The translations under genes and the position numbers were made by a program. From Cyanobacteria bacterium UBA9971 (GTDB lineage: Bacteria > Cyanobacteriota > Vampirovibrionia > Gastranaerophilales > UBA9971), in assembly GCA_003499955.1 (NCBI GenBank), contig DNRP01000043.1, forward strand, positions 3,144-32,549: a stretch of DNA of 29,406 bases. The letters are read 5' to 3'. Below are positions 13,115 through 29,274 of the stretch, one piece after another. The notes beneath the pieces were generated by a model, which saw nothing but the letters and a program-made list of their open reading frames with translations, was not told the origin of the DNA and ran no database searches. The number at the start of each line of letters is the position of its first letter. The stretch's first letter is position 1.

Positions 13115-13891
13115 ATGACGAAAACAGCGATAATTATTCCTGCAAGATATGCTTCTACAAGATTACCGGGAAAACCTCTTATAAAAATTCATGATAAAAC
13201 AATAATTCAATGGGTTTATGAAAGAGCGAGCCAGTCGAAATTAGCGCAGGAAGTAATAGTTGCTACAGATGATGAAAGAATATATCAGTCAGTAAAGGAA
13301 TTTGGCGGTCATGTAAAAATGACCGCTTCTTCGCATCAGAGTGGAAGCGACAGGATTGCTGAAATAGCAACAGCTAATCCTGATATGGAAATTATCGTTA
13401 ATGTTCAGGGGGATGAGCCTTTAATCACACCCGAAAGCATTGATGGGGCTATACAAGCCTTGATTTTGGATAAAAACGCAGATATTTCTACACTGATTAG
13501 AGAAATCACAGACAAAGAAGAAATTTTAAATCCTAATATCGTTAAAGTTGTTACCGATAATTCAGGAAAAGCGCTTTATTTCTCTCGCGCGGCGATTCCG
13601 TACATAAGGAATCAGATTGCCACGTCGCATCCGAAGGATGCTCCTCGCAATGACAGTTATATAAAGTTTTATGCGCATATCGGGCTTTATGCTTATAGGC
13701 GTGAATCTCTATTAAAAATGACCGAATTGCCTCAGTCCGATCTCGAAAAAGCGGAATGTCTCGAACAGTTAAGGGCATTGCAAAATGGTATGACCATAAA
13801 AACAGTCGTGGTTGACTATAAGCCAATCGGAATCGACACACCGGAAGATGTGGAAGGATTTAAACGATATTTGCAAACAAAGCTTAATTAG
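13115..13891 (+). CDS. kdsB: 3-deoxy-manno-octulosonate cytidylyltransferase (CMP-Kdo synthetase)
   Basis: KdsB activates Kdo as CMP-Kdo for lipid A/LPS inner-core assembly in the cytoplasm. The 258-residue protein has the N-terminal nucleotide loop IIPARYASTRLPGKPL, VIVATDDERI, TASSHQSGSDRIAE, the metal site VNVQGDEPLI, YFSRAAIPYIR, HIGLYAYR, LEQLRALQNG and the C-terminal GIDTPEDVE. Residues 166-181 (NQIATSHPKDAPRNDS) are extra compared with the usual short link between IPYxR and YxHIGLYAYR. They are encoded by a palindromic repeat found elsewhere in the window, inserted in frame. No internal stop results. The start abuts the transporter stop, so expression is coupled. A Kdo pathway implies an outer membrane with LPS. 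Confidence 0.96.
   Translation: MTKTAIIIPARYASTRLPGKPLIKIHDKTIIQWVYERASQSKLAQEVIVATDDERIYQSVKEFGGHVKMTASSHQSGSDRIAEIATANPDMEIIVNVQGDEPLITPESIDGAIQALILDKNADISTLIREITDKEEILNPNIVKVVTDNSGKALYFSRAAIPYIRNQIATSHPKDAPRNDSYIKFYAHIGLYAYRRESLLKMTELPQSDLEKAECLEQLRALQNGMTIKTVVVDYKPIGIDTPEDVEGFKRYLQTKLN
13613..13656. repeat. TGTCATTGCGAG-family repeat inside kdsB (in frame)
   Basis: The 44-bp stretch runs CAGATTGCCACGTCGCATCC to GCTCCTCGCAATGACAG. Its reverse complement matches copy 1 (2306-2349) at both ends (TGTCATTGCGAGGAG and ACGTGGCAATCT) and differs in the hairpin core (GCATCC/GGATGC in place of GAGCT/AGCTC). It is read through as NQIATSHPKDAPRNDS. Confidence 0.88.
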
Positions 13892-18434: not shown

Positions 18435-18581
18435 AAGAAGCTATCTGGTAAAATTATCTGTCATTGCGAGCGACTGAAATAAAACGAGGAGCGCGGCAAT
18501 CACAAGATTTCACTAATTATGAGATTGCTTCGTCGCAAGCTCCTCGCAATGACAATTGCAGGTTTTAACCAGATGACTTCT
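18435..18581. repeat. Composite palindromic repeat: TGTCATTGCGAG core with outer inverted arms
   Basis: The core at 18459-18554 begins TGTCATTGCGAGCG and ends CTCCTCGCAATGACA. Outside it, AAGAAGCTATCTGGTAAAA (18435-18453) is mirrored by TTTTAACCAGATGACTTCT (18563-18581), an imperfect inverted repeat. The whole 147-bp unit could fold into one long hairpin. It lies about 110 bp upstream of aroF. Confidence 0.82.
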
Positions 18582-20842: not shown

Positions 20843-20963
20843 TGTCATTGCGAGGCTTAAAAAGCCGAAGCAATTACATTGTTTTGTAAAATTATAAGAT
20901 TGTCCCCCTTCTTTTTTGACATTTAGTCAAAAAATTGGGTACCCTACTTCGTTCGCAATGACA
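20843..20963. repeat. TGTCATTGCGAG-family repeat between lipA and flagellin
   Basis: This 121-bp element runs from TGTCATTGCGAGGC to GTTCGCAATGACA, with GAAGCAATTACATT and AAGATTGTCCCCC internally and a TTGACATTTAGTCAA dyad in its middle. It ends 5 bp from the lipA stop codon. Confidence 0.85.
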
Positions 20964-21867: not shown

Positions 21868-21965
21868 TGTCATTGCGAGGAGGGCTAAAAGCCGACGTGG
21901 CAATCTATTAAACATTTTAGATTAAGAATAGATTGCCACGCTCGTGTTAGTCGCTCGCAATGACA
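21868..21965. repeat. TGTCATTGCGAG-family repeat between lpd and lipA
   Basis: This is a 98-bp palindromic element, TGTCATTGCGAGGAGGGC ... GACGTGGCAATCTATT ... AATAGATTGCCACGCTCG ... GCTCGCAATGACA. The internal pair GGCAATCTATT/AATAGATTGCC makes a two-arm hairpin. It is the most symmetrical copy in the window and lies within the presumed lpd-lipA transcript. Confidence 0.9.
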
Positions 21966-23401: not shown

Positions 23402-23544
23402 TGTCATTGCGAGGCTTTAACCTTATATAAAATGCAACTATCGAACTACCGAAGCAATCTTCCCAATGACAACACGCCACTTTAGAAGATTGCTTCGCAA
23501 GATAAATTTTAGTCTATTTCGTTGTTTAATGGCTCACAATGACA
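23402..23544. repeat. TGTCATTGCGAG-family repeat, degenerate or tandem, upstream of lpdA
   Basis: It starts TGTCATTGCGAGGC and ends CACAATGACA, with an internal AATGACA at about 23465-23471 and AGATTGCTTCGC. It may be two adjacent units or one unit with insertions. It occupies most of the 200-bp gap between lpdA and the next gene upstream. Confidence 0.78.
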
Positions 23545-25259: not shown

Positions 25260-26159
25260 ATGAACTTCAACACGGGGTTTAACTACGCACAGCCATCATT
25301 AGTAGGGAGTTTGGTATTTCCGGGAAGACAGTCCGTATTGCCTGCCTCTACTGTTCCTGAATATGCAGCTCAAGCTTATCCTTTATTAAATTATTCAAGT
25401 TCGGCTCATCAAATGGTTAGTGCATTGGGTGATGATAAATTAGGCAGATATTTGAATGTTGCTAACTTTAATCCAACTTCATATTCAAACAATGCTTATT
25501 CTTATAATCCATACAGCAATAATTCTTACAGCAATAATACTTTTAGCAATAACTCATCATCTAATAATTCAATAATTAATATAATTTTAAACTTTATAAA
25601 CGCAAAATCAACTGATACTGCAACTCAAGATGAAACAACAACTGCTGATACACCTTCAACCACTACAACAAATACGATAAACGGACTGTCTTTGTTTAAT
25701 CCATTACCGATATCCGATCTTTATGGCAATCAAATACCTTTTAATAATGCTGCAACTCAATTGGGGTTATTCGGCAATTATTACGGAACTCAAAGTATAG
25801 TAAGCAGATATGTCGGCGATACGATGTCTACCGACAAGGATGCCCCCGGCTATACATGGAAATACACTGTTCCGACTGTAAATACTGCTTCAACTACATC
25901 AACAACTTCAACTACAACTACAACAAGCACAACTTCTTCGGCTACCAATACAAATAATGCATTATCATTATTTGATCCATTACCGATATCCGATCTTTAT
26001 GGAAACCAGATACCTTATAACAATGCGGTTATACAAGAAGGCCTTTTTGGTAACGTACACGGCGTTACAAGTATTTTAAGCAGATATGTCGGTGACTTAA
26101 TGCCTACAGACAAAAATTCACCCGGATACACTTGGAAATATACCGTTCCGGGAGGTTAA
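25260..26159 (+). CDS. Duplicated-module protein with Thr/Ser-rich linkers, probable surface or secreted protein
   Basis: The 299-residue protein has an N-terminal unique part (1-75) and a Ser/Asn/Tyr-rich low-complexity stretch (about 78-105, SYSNNAYSYNPYSNNS). Two near-identical modules of about 63 residues follow (about 142-204 and 232-296), each starting LSLF(N/D)PLPISDLYGNQIP and ending PGYTWKYTVP. Thr/Ser-rich linkers precede each module. No classical signal peptide or membrane segment is visible. AGGAGA lies 7 bases before the ATG, a strong site. Both modules share a 23-bp identical DNA tract, suggesting recent duplication. It is monocistronic with a strong terminator. Family unknown; composition suggests a glycosylatable extracellular protein, which is inference. 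Confidence 0.72.
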   Translation: MNFNTGFNYAQPSLVGSLVFPGRQSVLPASTVPEYAAQAYPLLNYSSSAHQMVSALGDDKLGRYLNVANFNPTSYSNNAYSYNPYSNNSYSNNTFSNNSSSNNSIINIILNFINAKSTDTATQDETTTADTPSTTTTNTINGLSLFNPLPISDLYGNQIPFNNAATQLGLFGNYYGTQSIVSRYVGDTMSTDKDAPGYTWKYTVPTVNTASTTSTTSTTTTTSTTSSATNTNNALSLFDPLPISDLYGNQIPYNNAVIQEGLFGNVHGVTSILSRYVGDLMPTDKNSPGYTWKYTVPGG

Positions 26160-26739: not shown

Positions 26740-26827
26740 TGTCATTGCGAGGAGTGAAACGACGAAGCAATCCAAAATTAAACTATTAGATTGCCGCGTC
26801 GGCTCTTCTAGCCTCCTCGCAATGACA
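26740..26827. repeat. TGTCATTGCGAG-family repeat upstream of tsaE
   Basis: This 88-bp palindromic element starts TGTCATTGCGAGGAGTG and ends GCCTCCTCGCAATGACA, with CGAAGCAATCC and AGATTGCCGCGTCGGC inside. It lies between the tsaE start and the structured RNA candidate. Confidence 0.9.
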
Positions 26828-26844: not shown

Positions 26845-27014
26845 TGCCCTGAACAACCGCTGTTTTGATTCCCGGTGATCAGCCAGGATGGGTGCCCACC
26901 CTTATAGATTTTTCGTTTCCTAAAGTAAATTAGGTATACGTCACTATAAAAAACGGAGAAAGGCTCCCTATTTATAATAAATGTAGGATCAAAACTAATC
27001 GGCTACTCAGGGAT
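26845..27014. ncRNA. Candidate structured RNA, multi-helix, class not recognised
   Basis: There is no open frame, but extensive complementarity. The ends pair as CCCTGA (26847-26852) with TCAGGG (27007-27012), CCG with CGG (27000-27002), GTTTTGAT (26862-26869) with ATCAAAAC (26988-26995), and CC with GG. Inside are GGGT-GCCC-ACCC (26890-26901), a long arm TTATAG/CTATAA with CGT/ACG and CCTAA/TTAGG (26902-26949), and GGAG/CTCC (26955-26967). This makes a closed multi-branch fold of about 166 nt, whose size and long closing helix recall 6S RNA, though I cannot match its sequence. G+C is higher than in the flanks. Strand is undetermined. A -10 box for the next gene lies downstream at 27156, so it need not be a leader. 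Confidence 0.5.
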
Positions 27015-27155
27015 TTTCAATAATTTTATTCTTTCATATTTTTTATTGTTTTTCCAGTCTTGACAAATTAATTTATGAAGTTTTTTAAAAAATTTATATT
27101 TTTTATTAAATAAAAGATACATTTAAAAATTAAATATAAACCATATTTTTTGTTC

Positions 27156-27161
27156 TATAAT
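27156..27161 (+). promoter_or_regulatory. -10 box candidate of the rlmD-family gene
   Basis: TATAAT at 27156-27161 lies 42 bp before the ATG, inside TGTTCTATAAT, which is the same 11-mer found ahead of aroF. The -35 region (AAATATAAACC) is weak. Confidence 0.45.
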
Positions 27162-27203
27162 CGGATAGTAAAAGAAAATTTTTATATAAAGCAGTAAAAA
27201 ATA

Positions 27204-28823
27204 ATGGAAAAAAACGAAATAATTGAATTAAATATAGAAAAACTCACTTATGGTGGAGAAGGTTTAGGCAGAATTGACGGCATGACGGTTTTTGTGCCTG
27301 ATACAGTTGCGGGTGATTATATAAAAGCAAAAATCGTTTCTGTGAAGAAAAACTTTGCAAATGCAGAGATTACAGAAATAATTATGCCTTCCGAACACAG
27401 AATAAAACCTTTTTGTCCGCTCGCAAATGCCTGCGGAGGATGCCAATGGCAGCATATAAACTATGAAGAACAATTAAGAGCAAAAAAACAAATAATAGAA
27501 GAATGCATGCAAAAAATCGCCGGAATTGAAGTCTCTGTAAAAGACGTTCTAAAAAGCGATGAAGTTAAGGAATACCGCTGTAAAGTTCAATATCCTGTCC
27601 AGCAGACAAAGATTTCCAAAAGATTTCTGGCGGGATATTACAGAAAAAATACCCACGATATAGTAAATATAAAATTCTGTCCGATTCAACCGAGTATAAT
27701 TGACGAAATTGCCGAATATTTAAGAAAAAAAGCGCAAGAGTTAGACCTTACTGCATACAATGAAAAGAATAAAAAAGGTTTGATTCGGCATTTTGTTTTT
27801 AGATACAGCCAGACAAATAAAGATTTGCTTTTGACTATTGTGGTATCACCACCCCCCTGCCCCCCTCCTCAAGGAGGGGGGAGAATGGTTGCGGAGGGGG
27901 CTGCGCCCCCTCCGCCCGCCCCAAATAAAGTGGATTTTTTACCGGAATTAAAAAAACTTTGCGCGGCGGTAAAAAACGAATTTCCTGCTATTAGCGGCGT
28001 TCTGGTAAATTACAACACTAAACATTCAAATGTTATTTTAGGAAAAGAAACAGAGCTTATCGAAGGCAAAGATTATATAGAAGAAATACTGGAGGGAAGA
28101 ACTTTCCATATTTCCGCAGAAAGTTTCTTTCAGGTAAATCCGCTTACCGCTCAGAAAATGTTTTTAGAAGTGCGTGGTATTGTAGAGGATAAGGTTTCCG
28201 GTTATTTTAGCGATACTGTCATTCTGAGCGCTAGCGAAGAATCTGTCCAGCATACGAAGACTGCTATTATACCCAATGGGACAGATCCTTCGGCGTTGCC
28301 TCAGGATGACAAAAAAATTCAGCATGACAATTTTGAAAAACCTTCTATTCTTGATGTATATGCGGGTTCAGGAAGTTTTTCCATGTTTTTAAGCGATTTA
28401 GCGTCTAACATTACAGCGGTAGAAGAAAGTGAAAGTTCCGTAAATGACGGGCTGGAAAACTTAAGACTTAACAAAATTGAAAATATTACTTTTATTCAAG
28501 GCAATGCGGATGAAGTCCTGAAAAAAATGACGGGTGGCGAGCAAAAGCCTGAAAACGAAGATGAAGAACCCATAATAATAGAGCCTCAAGCCTTTGATAT
28601 AGTTATTCTTGACCCGCCAAGAAGAGGATGCTCTGAATCAGTCATCGAATCAATTAAAAAACTTGCGGCAAAATACATAATTTATATAAGCTGCAACCCA
28701 TCTACTTTAGCCAGAGATGTTAAACTTTTAAGCGAGGATTTTATTCCTGAATATATCCAGCCGGTTGATATGTTTTGTCATACTTACCATGTAGAATCTA
28801 TTTTGGTGTTAACAAAAAAATAG
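27204..28823 (+). CDS. rlmD: 23S rRNA (uracil-5-)-methyltransferase, RlmD/RumA (TrmA) family, with two repeat-derived insertions
   Basis: It is a SAM-dependent m5U methyltransferase of rRNA. Domains: TRAM (1-60), the [4Fe-4S] cysteines C71, C77, C80 and C159, then the Rossmann core with DVYAGSGSF (384-392), DPPRRGCSES (470-479) and YISCNPSTLARD (494-505), where C497 is the catalytic nucleophile. The RlmCD/RlmD choice is uncertain. At 539 residues it is much longer than the usual 430-460. Two insertions explain this: residues about 215-241 (Pro/Gly/Ala-rich, from a GC-rich palindrome) and about 338-371 (from another palindromic repeat). An acidic insertion (444-462) has no repeat origin that I see. 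All core motifs survive, so it is probably active. The GNAT gene follows within 7 bp. Confidence 0.93.
   Translation: MEKNEIIELNIEKLTYGGEGLGRIDGMTVFVPDTVAGDYIKAKIVSVKKNFANAEITEIIMPSEHRIKPFCPLANACGGCQWQHINYEEQLRAKKQIIEECMQKIAGIEVSVKDVLKSDEVKEYRCKVQYPVQQTKISKRFLAGYYRKNTHDIVNIKFCPIQPSIIDEIAEYLRKKAQELDLTAYNEKNKKGLIRHFVFRYSQTNKDLLLTIVVSPPPCPPPQGGGRMVAEGAAPPPPAPNKVDFLPELKKLCAAVKNEFPAISGVLVNYNTKHSNVILGKETELIEGKDYIEEILEGRTFHISAESFFQVNPLTAQKMFLEVRGIVEDKVSGYFSDTVILSASEESVQHTKTAIIPNGTDPSALPQDDKKIQHDNFEKPSILDVYAGSGSFSMFLSDLASNITAVEESESSVNDGLENLRLNKIENITFIQGNADEVLKKMTGGEQKPENEDEEPIIIEPQAFDIVILDPPRRGCSESVIESIKKLAAKYIIYISCNPSTLARDVKLLSEDFIPEYIQPVDMFCHTYHVESILVLTKK
27850..27921. repeat. GC-rich double palindrome inside the rlmD-family gene
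   Basis: Two hairpins lie in tandem. CCCCCTCC (27861-27868) pairs with GGAGGGGG (27873-27880), and GCGGAGGGGGC (27891-27901) pairs perfectly with GCCCCCTCCGC (27905-27915). The stretch is almost pure G+C in AT-rich surroundings. It is read as PPPCPPPQGGGRMVAEGAAP and onward without a stop. Confidence 0.85.
28217..28311. repeat. TGTCATTCTGAG-family palindromic repeat inside the rlmD-family gene
   Basis: This 95-bp element starts TGTCATTCTGAGCGCTAGCG and ends TTGCCTCAGGATGACA. Its inner arms AAGAATCTGTCC and GGACAGATCCTTCG also pair. The termini differ from the TGTCATTGCGAG family, so this is a separate family. It is translated in frame from about residue 338 to 370. Confidence 0.87.
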
Positions 28824-28830
28824 AATTAAA

Positions 28831-29274
28831 GTGCTTAAATCAACAGTTTCGCTTAAAAAAGACTTTTTAAACAAAATAAAAATCAGATACGACAAAAATA
28901 TTCCTCCTGAATTTGTCCAGCAGCTTTATCTTTCTGTCGGATGGCAGCATCGGGAATGTTGCGAAATTAAAAAATCACTTGAGGGAAGTTTTCTTGTGGC
29001 TTCGGCATGGATTGGTGAAATACTGGTCGGGTTGGCAAGGGCAACCGGTGACGGTGTTTTTAGCGTTACAATCTGGGATTTTTCAATCCTTCCTGCTTAT
29101 CAAAAACAGGGCATAGGTAAATTATTATTAAATTCCATGCTGACTAAACTAAACGATTATGATATACCATTAATTACTTTATATTCAGAGTTGGATAAAA
29201 AAAACTTTTATAGTAAGCTAGGGTTTGAATGTGGTTCAAAAAAAATAATTGGAATGTATAAGTACAATAAATAG
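28831..29274 (+). CDS. GNAT-family N-acetyltransferase
   Basis: The 147-residue protein carries the GNAT acetyl-CoA core. [20 protein letters not shown] holds beta-4 and the pyrophosphate loop Q-x-x-G-x-G/A (QKQGIG), followed by [21 protein letters not shown], the usual 'A..FY.K.GF' C-terminal motif. Substrate cannot be predicted. It probably starts at GTG 28831 (no good ribosome site), 7 bp after the rlmD-family stop, so it is translated from the same message. rplI begins 19 bp after its stop. Confidence 0.85.

Follow-up and report, generated by a model that had tools for sequence, protein, structure and literature searches.

The rlmD gene examined here contains a 95-bp palindrome that does not interrupt its reading frame, which raises the question of what this element is, how it came to lie there, and whether it is read as part of the protein. 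The window (the whole stretch of DNA analysed, 29,406 nucleotides) comprises positions 3144-32549 of contig C22 in a metagenome-assembled genome (MAG) of 2,243,743 bases, 188 contigs, and 83% completeness. Its RlmD ORF scores 366.2 bits on TIGR00479 (cut-off, 183.55), and its kin are found in Candidatus Melainabacteria and Gastranaerophilales, the nearest named one being GWA2_34_9 (L066). The gene and its two inserts are laid out as follows.

27204..28823, plus strand: rlmD, 23S rRNA uracil-1939 C5 methyltransferase, 539 aa (TIGR00479; Pfam TRAM and tRNA_U5-meth_tr)
about 27846..27925, plus strand: insert A, G+C-rich double hairpin of another repeat family, about 26 extra residues (SPPPCPPPQGGGRMVAEGAAPPPPAPNK); repeat search, fold, congener comparison
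28217..28311, plus strand: insert B, interpreted as an inverted REP dimer and predicted to be translated within residues 338-370; repeat search, fold, congener comparison
28217..28248, plus strand: left REP unit of insert B, T type (TTCT..AGAA); pattern search, unit alignment
28249..28278, no strand: variable spacer between the insert B units, 30 bases; unit coordinates
28279..28311, minus strand: right REP unit of insert B, C type (TCCT..AGGA); pattern search, unit alignment
28312..28329, plus strand: 3' extension of insert B, ending in a second end-like motif, TCAGCATGACA, at 28319-28329

The initial annotation had described 28217-28311 as a palindrome with paired ends and paired inner arms, kept in frame, and this description was borne out. 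The outer ends, TGTCATTCTGAG (28217-28228) and CTCAGGATGACA (28300-28311), are 92% complementary and the inner arms (28235-28248 and 28279-28292) are 93% complementary; the frame stays open through the 539-aa ORF that scores above the RlmD cut-off. Folded alone, insert B has a z score of -5.34 as DNA and -6.03 as RNA, and in both cases 0/200 shuffles were as good. Rfam gave no matches in positions 27000-29000 of the window.

Comparison with relatives shows the same site without the element. The stretch from VEDK to PSILD spans 49 residues in the RlmD of the window and only 7 and 3 residues in congeners G002 and G001, respectively, so that it is longer by 42 and 46 residues, and inserts A and B are both missing from the RlmD of these two congeners. 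A comparison of orthologues had been proposed with the original description, and relatives do lack the residues: an RlmD match was obtained from 34 other genomes, 33 of them informative (the match from G018 stops at residue 194), and query residues 333-369 have no counterpart in any orthologue match.

A search of the genome, also proposed at the outset, revealed that the element is a genome-wide repeat. A blastn search of the own genome with insert B and its flanks found 45 matches at E<=1e-3 (self included), and a model of the unit has at least 150 matches in the 2.24-Mb assembly (150 of 1391 candidates scored). These 150 matches form 103 loci, 47 of them inverted pairs and 56 single units, and a decayed partner may lie beside some of the single ones; an end-like motif at most 30 bases outside an end, as in the 3' extension above, occurs at 7 of the 103 loci, insert B of rlmD among them. 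Across genomes the distribution is patchy: 19 of the 40 genomes searched, own included, have unit matches (76 in G001, 101 in G002, and 103 in G006), several genomes of the same family among these 40 have none, and 43/146 genomes of a class sample have matches under stricter filters.

The copies share a common plan, namely TGTCAT-YCT-GA-(stem-loop)-GA-AGR-ATCTGTCC, a variable spacer, and then the same unit inverted. A pattern search returned 56 units, with TTCT opposite AGAAT in 28, TCCT opposite AGGAT in 27, and TTTT opposite AGAAT in 1; 53 units (43 distinct) were aligned and the remaining three were left out. The TGTC tag is invariant in all 53 aligned units. In the unit hairpin, 93.3% of cells are paired and 48 cells are changed on both sides, values that none of 500 shuffles reached, and sliding the hairpin partner lowers pairing to 49.7% or less. 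Two out of five covariation measures fail to exceed shuffles, these being the number of pairs with both-side changes (3; 358/500 shuffles) and the number of further pair types (9; 312/500). Because nearly every dimer has one unit of each kind, the C/T alternation mostly reflects two inherited unit types, and the inner stem is therefore the better covariation evidence: its pair 13-22 is G-C in 25 units, C-G in 16, U-A in 1, and other in 1. The stem opens with A-T and T-A (pair 5-30 in 42/43 distinct units and pair 6-29 in 43/43) and is 5 bp long; a GA/GA internal loop separates it from an inner stem that varies and has 2-3 or more bp.

On this architecture, the 95-bp element is best read as an inverted dimer of a TGTC-tagged REP hairpin unit. 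As far as the relevant sections of the published description go (PMC3733652), CGTC-tagged REPs are alike in having an unpaired end tag, often altered to TGTC, on a hairpin unit, in opening their first stem with A-T and T-A, in forming head-to-head dimers, and in that some copies are translated in genes, DNA repair genes included. The same sections give no known dedicated transposase for them and list them from five phyla without naming Melainabacteria, and they describe stems of 8-9 bp with loops of 4-5 bases, in contrast to the 5 bp and GA/GA loop found here. This difference in stem and loop is why we assign the unit to REPs of the CGTC/TGTC plan rather than to a published CGTC family. REPINs, in the portion of PMC3116915 that deals with them, likewise consist of a spacer and two inverted REPs that form one long hairpin, with the doublet seeming to be the replicating unit; they are extragenic and accompanied by RAYTs, whereas some copies here are genic and no RAYT was found. 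The initial annotation had pointed to Rickettsia palindromic elements as a precedent, and the choice was apt, as RPE-4 and RPE-6 are assigned to the CGTC-tagged REP superfamily in a passage of PMC3733652. From the passages on them in PMC3767692 and PMC10969869, Rickettsia palindromic elements resemble ours in being palindromic and translated in frame within unrelated housekeeping genes, and RPE-4/6/7 have the end motif ATGAC in common with the window element; they differ in lineage and consensus, and an insert is said there to occur at the same locus in every Rickettsia orthologue, whereas the congener sites here are empty. By analogy, then, the window element appears to work like a Rickettsia palindromic element, and we do not claim that it belongs to the RPE sequence family. 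The kind of element is already known, being that of intragenic CGTC/TGTC-tagged REPs, some Rickettsia palindromic elements included.

We consider it highly probable, at about 0.88, that this 95-bp palindrome belongs to a non-autonomous mobile repeat whose in-frame copies in genes are read as extra, probably disordered peptide. Two TGTC-tagged REP units, inverted around a variable spacer, would spread by an activity acting in trans; a copy that lands in a protein gene would survive only where its length leaves the frame open and the site is a permissive loop or linker, and it would then be read as extra peptide. In rlmD, the insert B dimer and the G+C-rich insert A would fill two loops that serve as recurrent landing sites in relatives. 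That the element is mobile and that the protein tolerates it, as first suggested, are points that we infer, and the same goes for transposition, translation in the cell, and retained RlmD activity. The REP-dimer nature, the second insert of rlmD, and the turnover of the site described below were absent from the initial annotation.

The same arrangement recurs in other genes. A locus was called genic if the copy lay in an ORF of 110 aa or more and was flanked within it by 25 or more codons on each side, and the surroundings of all 103 loci were examined. Eighteen lie inside ORFs and 14 were judged sound; the exclusions were L294 (which lies ahead of the probable start of GltX), L305 and L336 (ORFs that are probably spurious), and L326 (N-terminal with an uncertain start, still kept among the 10 genic dimers of the frame count below). 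Proteins with an in-frame copy that score above NCBIfam cut-offs are RlmD, DnaG, RNase HII, LeuS, RecJ, MutL, and MutS, and those identified at the family level are a thioredoxin-reductase-like protein, a GatD-like amidotransferase, a SpoU-type methyltransferase, an amidohydrolase, a GH35 protein, a TPR protein, and a HAD-like protein. Judging from the open frames, these copies would be read as protein. The RecJ insert lies outside the model-matched part (33-578), so the conserved core is uninterrupted. DnaG is insert-free in G001, G004, and G006 (no DnaG match was obtained from G002), and MutS in G001, G002, G004, and G006. Replication and repair genes make up 5 of the 14 (DnaG, RecJ, MutS, MutL, and RNase HII), a count that recalls the frequent occurrence of genic REPs in DNA repair genes, reported and left unexplained in a section of PMC3733652. 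A TPR protein of the own genome (L312) and one of G001 (L193) have a REP-derived insert at the same place with differing peptides.

It would be extremely improbable, in our view, that the hairpin is instead skipped by translational bypassing or cut out of the RNA, so that the insert never appears in the protein. Bypassing elements are known from yeast mitochondria, and in favour of this reading the hairpin is highly stable as RNA (-40.2 kcal/mol). Stops and frame changes inside a gene are tolerated by a bypassing element; a sequence that is skipped is free to lose its frame or to gain stops, and gene-breaking copies are expected if the repeat is skipped. All 10 dimers taken as genic are open in frame (a count that includes the doubtful L326 and follows from the way this set was selected), while of the 37 other dimers 19 are closed in all six frames. 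Close same-strand ORFs flank 26 loci on both sides, and 25 of these pairs were scanned (all except L259), covering 25 of the 85 loci outside ORFs. Both partners have Pfam matches at 1e-6 in 20 of the 25, and these are always two separate genes, rpoB/rpoC, rplJ/rplL, motA/motB, and cheB/cheR among them; the other 5 were uninformative on one side. Thus, a split gene was seen in 0/20 pairs annotatable on both sides.

The reading as translated peptide accords with the predicted structure. AlphaFold2, run with a 36-sequence alignment, gave RlmD a mean pLDDT of 84.5 and a pTM of 0.82, with pLDDT below 50 confined to inserts A and B (residues 219-229, 237-243, and 334-375). The surface loop anticipated at insert B thus appears as a disordered segment (334-375) in the model, although residues that align with no relative would be expected to score low as well. 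In RlmD the best PDB match is interrupted at both inserts (query 2-217, 251-322, and 381-538), and in DnaG, MutS, and RNase HII it is likewise interrupted around the insert; the insert peptides are, on these predictions, probably disordered.

Insert A is a second repeat of rlmD predicted to be translated, unrelated to insert B, with 5 matches in its own genome (self included) and a fold z score of -4.59 as DNA. Its G+C-rich type is found in RlmD, in NagZ (near the start), and in an MnmL/YtqA-type protein. The window also holds a sister REP family, recognised by twelve TGTCATTGCGAG ends (0.08 expected) that make up five inverted pairs and two single ends.

18459-18554, 20843-20963, 21868-21965, 23402-23544, and 26740-26827: inverted pairs of TGTCATTGCGAG ends
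2306 and 13644: single TGTCATTGCGAG ends, one of them inside an ORF
13615..13655, minus strand: TGTCATTGCGAG-family REP unit, predicted to be translated (IATSHPKDAPRND), inside ORF 13115-13891

By our reading, ORF 13115-13891 encodes the CTP-transferase KdsB. The TGTCATTGCGAG type is present in LeuS, an M16 peptidase, and MqnE, and by eye in the thioredoxin-reductase-like protein, NagZ, KdtA, the amidohydrolase, and KdsB; going by these frames, the sister repeats seem to be translated too. ORF 25260-26159, which has no Pfam match, contains two 207-base copies that are 72% alike.

In the protein P0014, the start of another protein (PF01743 match) is fused to the C-terminal part of RlmD exactly at insert A, the result of either misassembly or recombination at the repeat. 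This fusion, together with the fragmentation of a metagenome assembly into 188 contigs, would fit repeats that had joined unrelated reads, but for the window such an artefact is very improbable: both RlmD parts are present and in frame, an identical RlmD is found on 2 contigs, the longest of 93,846 bases (40,400 for C22), the same pattern recurs in many other genes, and separate assemblies of relatives carry different inserts at the same sites.

These different inserts are the new part of the finding. Among 35 aligned relatives, RlmD site B is empty in 34 (the exception is L100) and site A in 32; of the site A exceptions, L112 has HSEQSEESV, a peptide of the window REP type, L126 has a proline-rich peptide, and L142 has a short one. 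Turnover was followed in 20 close RlmD proteins, with peptides assigned to repeat families by eye. At site B, the window element is present in P0001 and the chimera-like P0014, HCEQSEA or HCEKAR peptides in P0005 and P0006, RHSEEQSD in P0016 and P0017, and IPNQVRN in P0018; at site A, P0005 has a related G+C-rich peptide displaced by a few residues and P0019 a longer, not repeat-like one. In a tree of RlmD, P0001 stands beside P0005 and P0006 with weak support (0.384).

The DnaG site was compared in 24 close proteins: it holds a forward dimer in the genome of the window, the reverse type in P0124 and P0132, a HAELVSASE peptide in P0126, a short QDDK in 5, other long forms in P0135 and P0140, and nothing in 13. 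The DnaG of the window's genome pairs with P0126 (0.938), and P0124 joins both (0.991). With the DnaG insert region as sole query, 3 proteins were found, DnaG itself included; HAELVSASE-type repeat patterns occurred at 4/365 loci, none identified from the own genome. In G001, the DNA at this site reads TCAGGATGACAA, which matches a REP end and looks like a deletion scar; possibly the target already carried this sequence. A single insertion diverging where it stands would not easily yield both opposite orientations and unrelated families at one site; inversion and replacement at the site may have occurred. Since the two sites are seen with other families, the opposite orientation, a scar-like stretch, or nothing, the RlmD and DnaG loops look, from these comparisons, like turnover hotspots. 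For RPE-4/6/7, a section of PMC3767692 treats a hotspot versus one ancient, diverged insert as an open question, and the DnaG and RlmD sites favour hotspots. It is conceivable, and we put this forward only tentatively as a doubtful extension, that translated REP slots are reusable landing pads in which TGTCA..TGACA-ended families replace one another, flip, or leave a short in-frame scar, with no resident RAYT. If so, housekeeping proteins, several of them of replication and repair, would renew their disordered loops within a genus.

The differing occupants also bear on whether the loops have been adopted to serve RlmD, for instance in RNA binding. RlmD does have RNA as its substrate, and both loops are occupied in several lineages. 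At a given site, however, the peptides share neither sequence nor reading frame, close relatives have no inserts, and the inserts are predicted to be disordered, all of which makes adoption very unlikely.

As to the mover of the repeat, no clear target-site duplication was seen where RlmD, DnaG, and MutS were aligned with relatives whose sites are empty. A 2-base duplication was considered from length modulo 3 (1 mod 3 in 7/10 genic dimers versus 15/37 others), which is too weak a signal. A resident RAYT was also sought and not found: PF01797 (Y1, RAYT type) has 0 matches in the own assembly (83% complete). Among 40 genomes it matches in 11, above the cut-off in 10, and the sole match in the genus, in G002, is below the cut-off and has two stops.

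In searches of an open-access library we found, among the titles listed, no report of palindromic, REP, or REPIN repeats in Melainabacteria or Gastranaerophilales, nor of the insert peptides; within that scope the lineage is new, and new as well are how many genes carry copies and that the sites turn over. Repeats read as protein, best known from Rickettsia, would thereby extend to Melainabacteria with several repeat families and clean empty sites in congeners, a combination that makes the hotspot question of RPE-4/6/7 testable. The inserts also provide a natural map of places in DnaG, MutS, MutL, LeuS, RNase HII, and RlmD that may tolerate some 25-45 extra residues.

Outside genes, REP copies occupy short gaps of core operons (L304, L305, L265, L266, L309, and L308), including those of rpoB-rpoC, rplJ-rplL, rpsE-rplO-secY, motA-motB, and cheB-cheR. 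In G002, nine copies (L152, L155, L157, L160, L163, L166, L169, L172, and L175) have near-identical flanks with inverted GTCGCC-like ends, and the REP dimer there is apparently carried within a larger repeat that was amplified recently.
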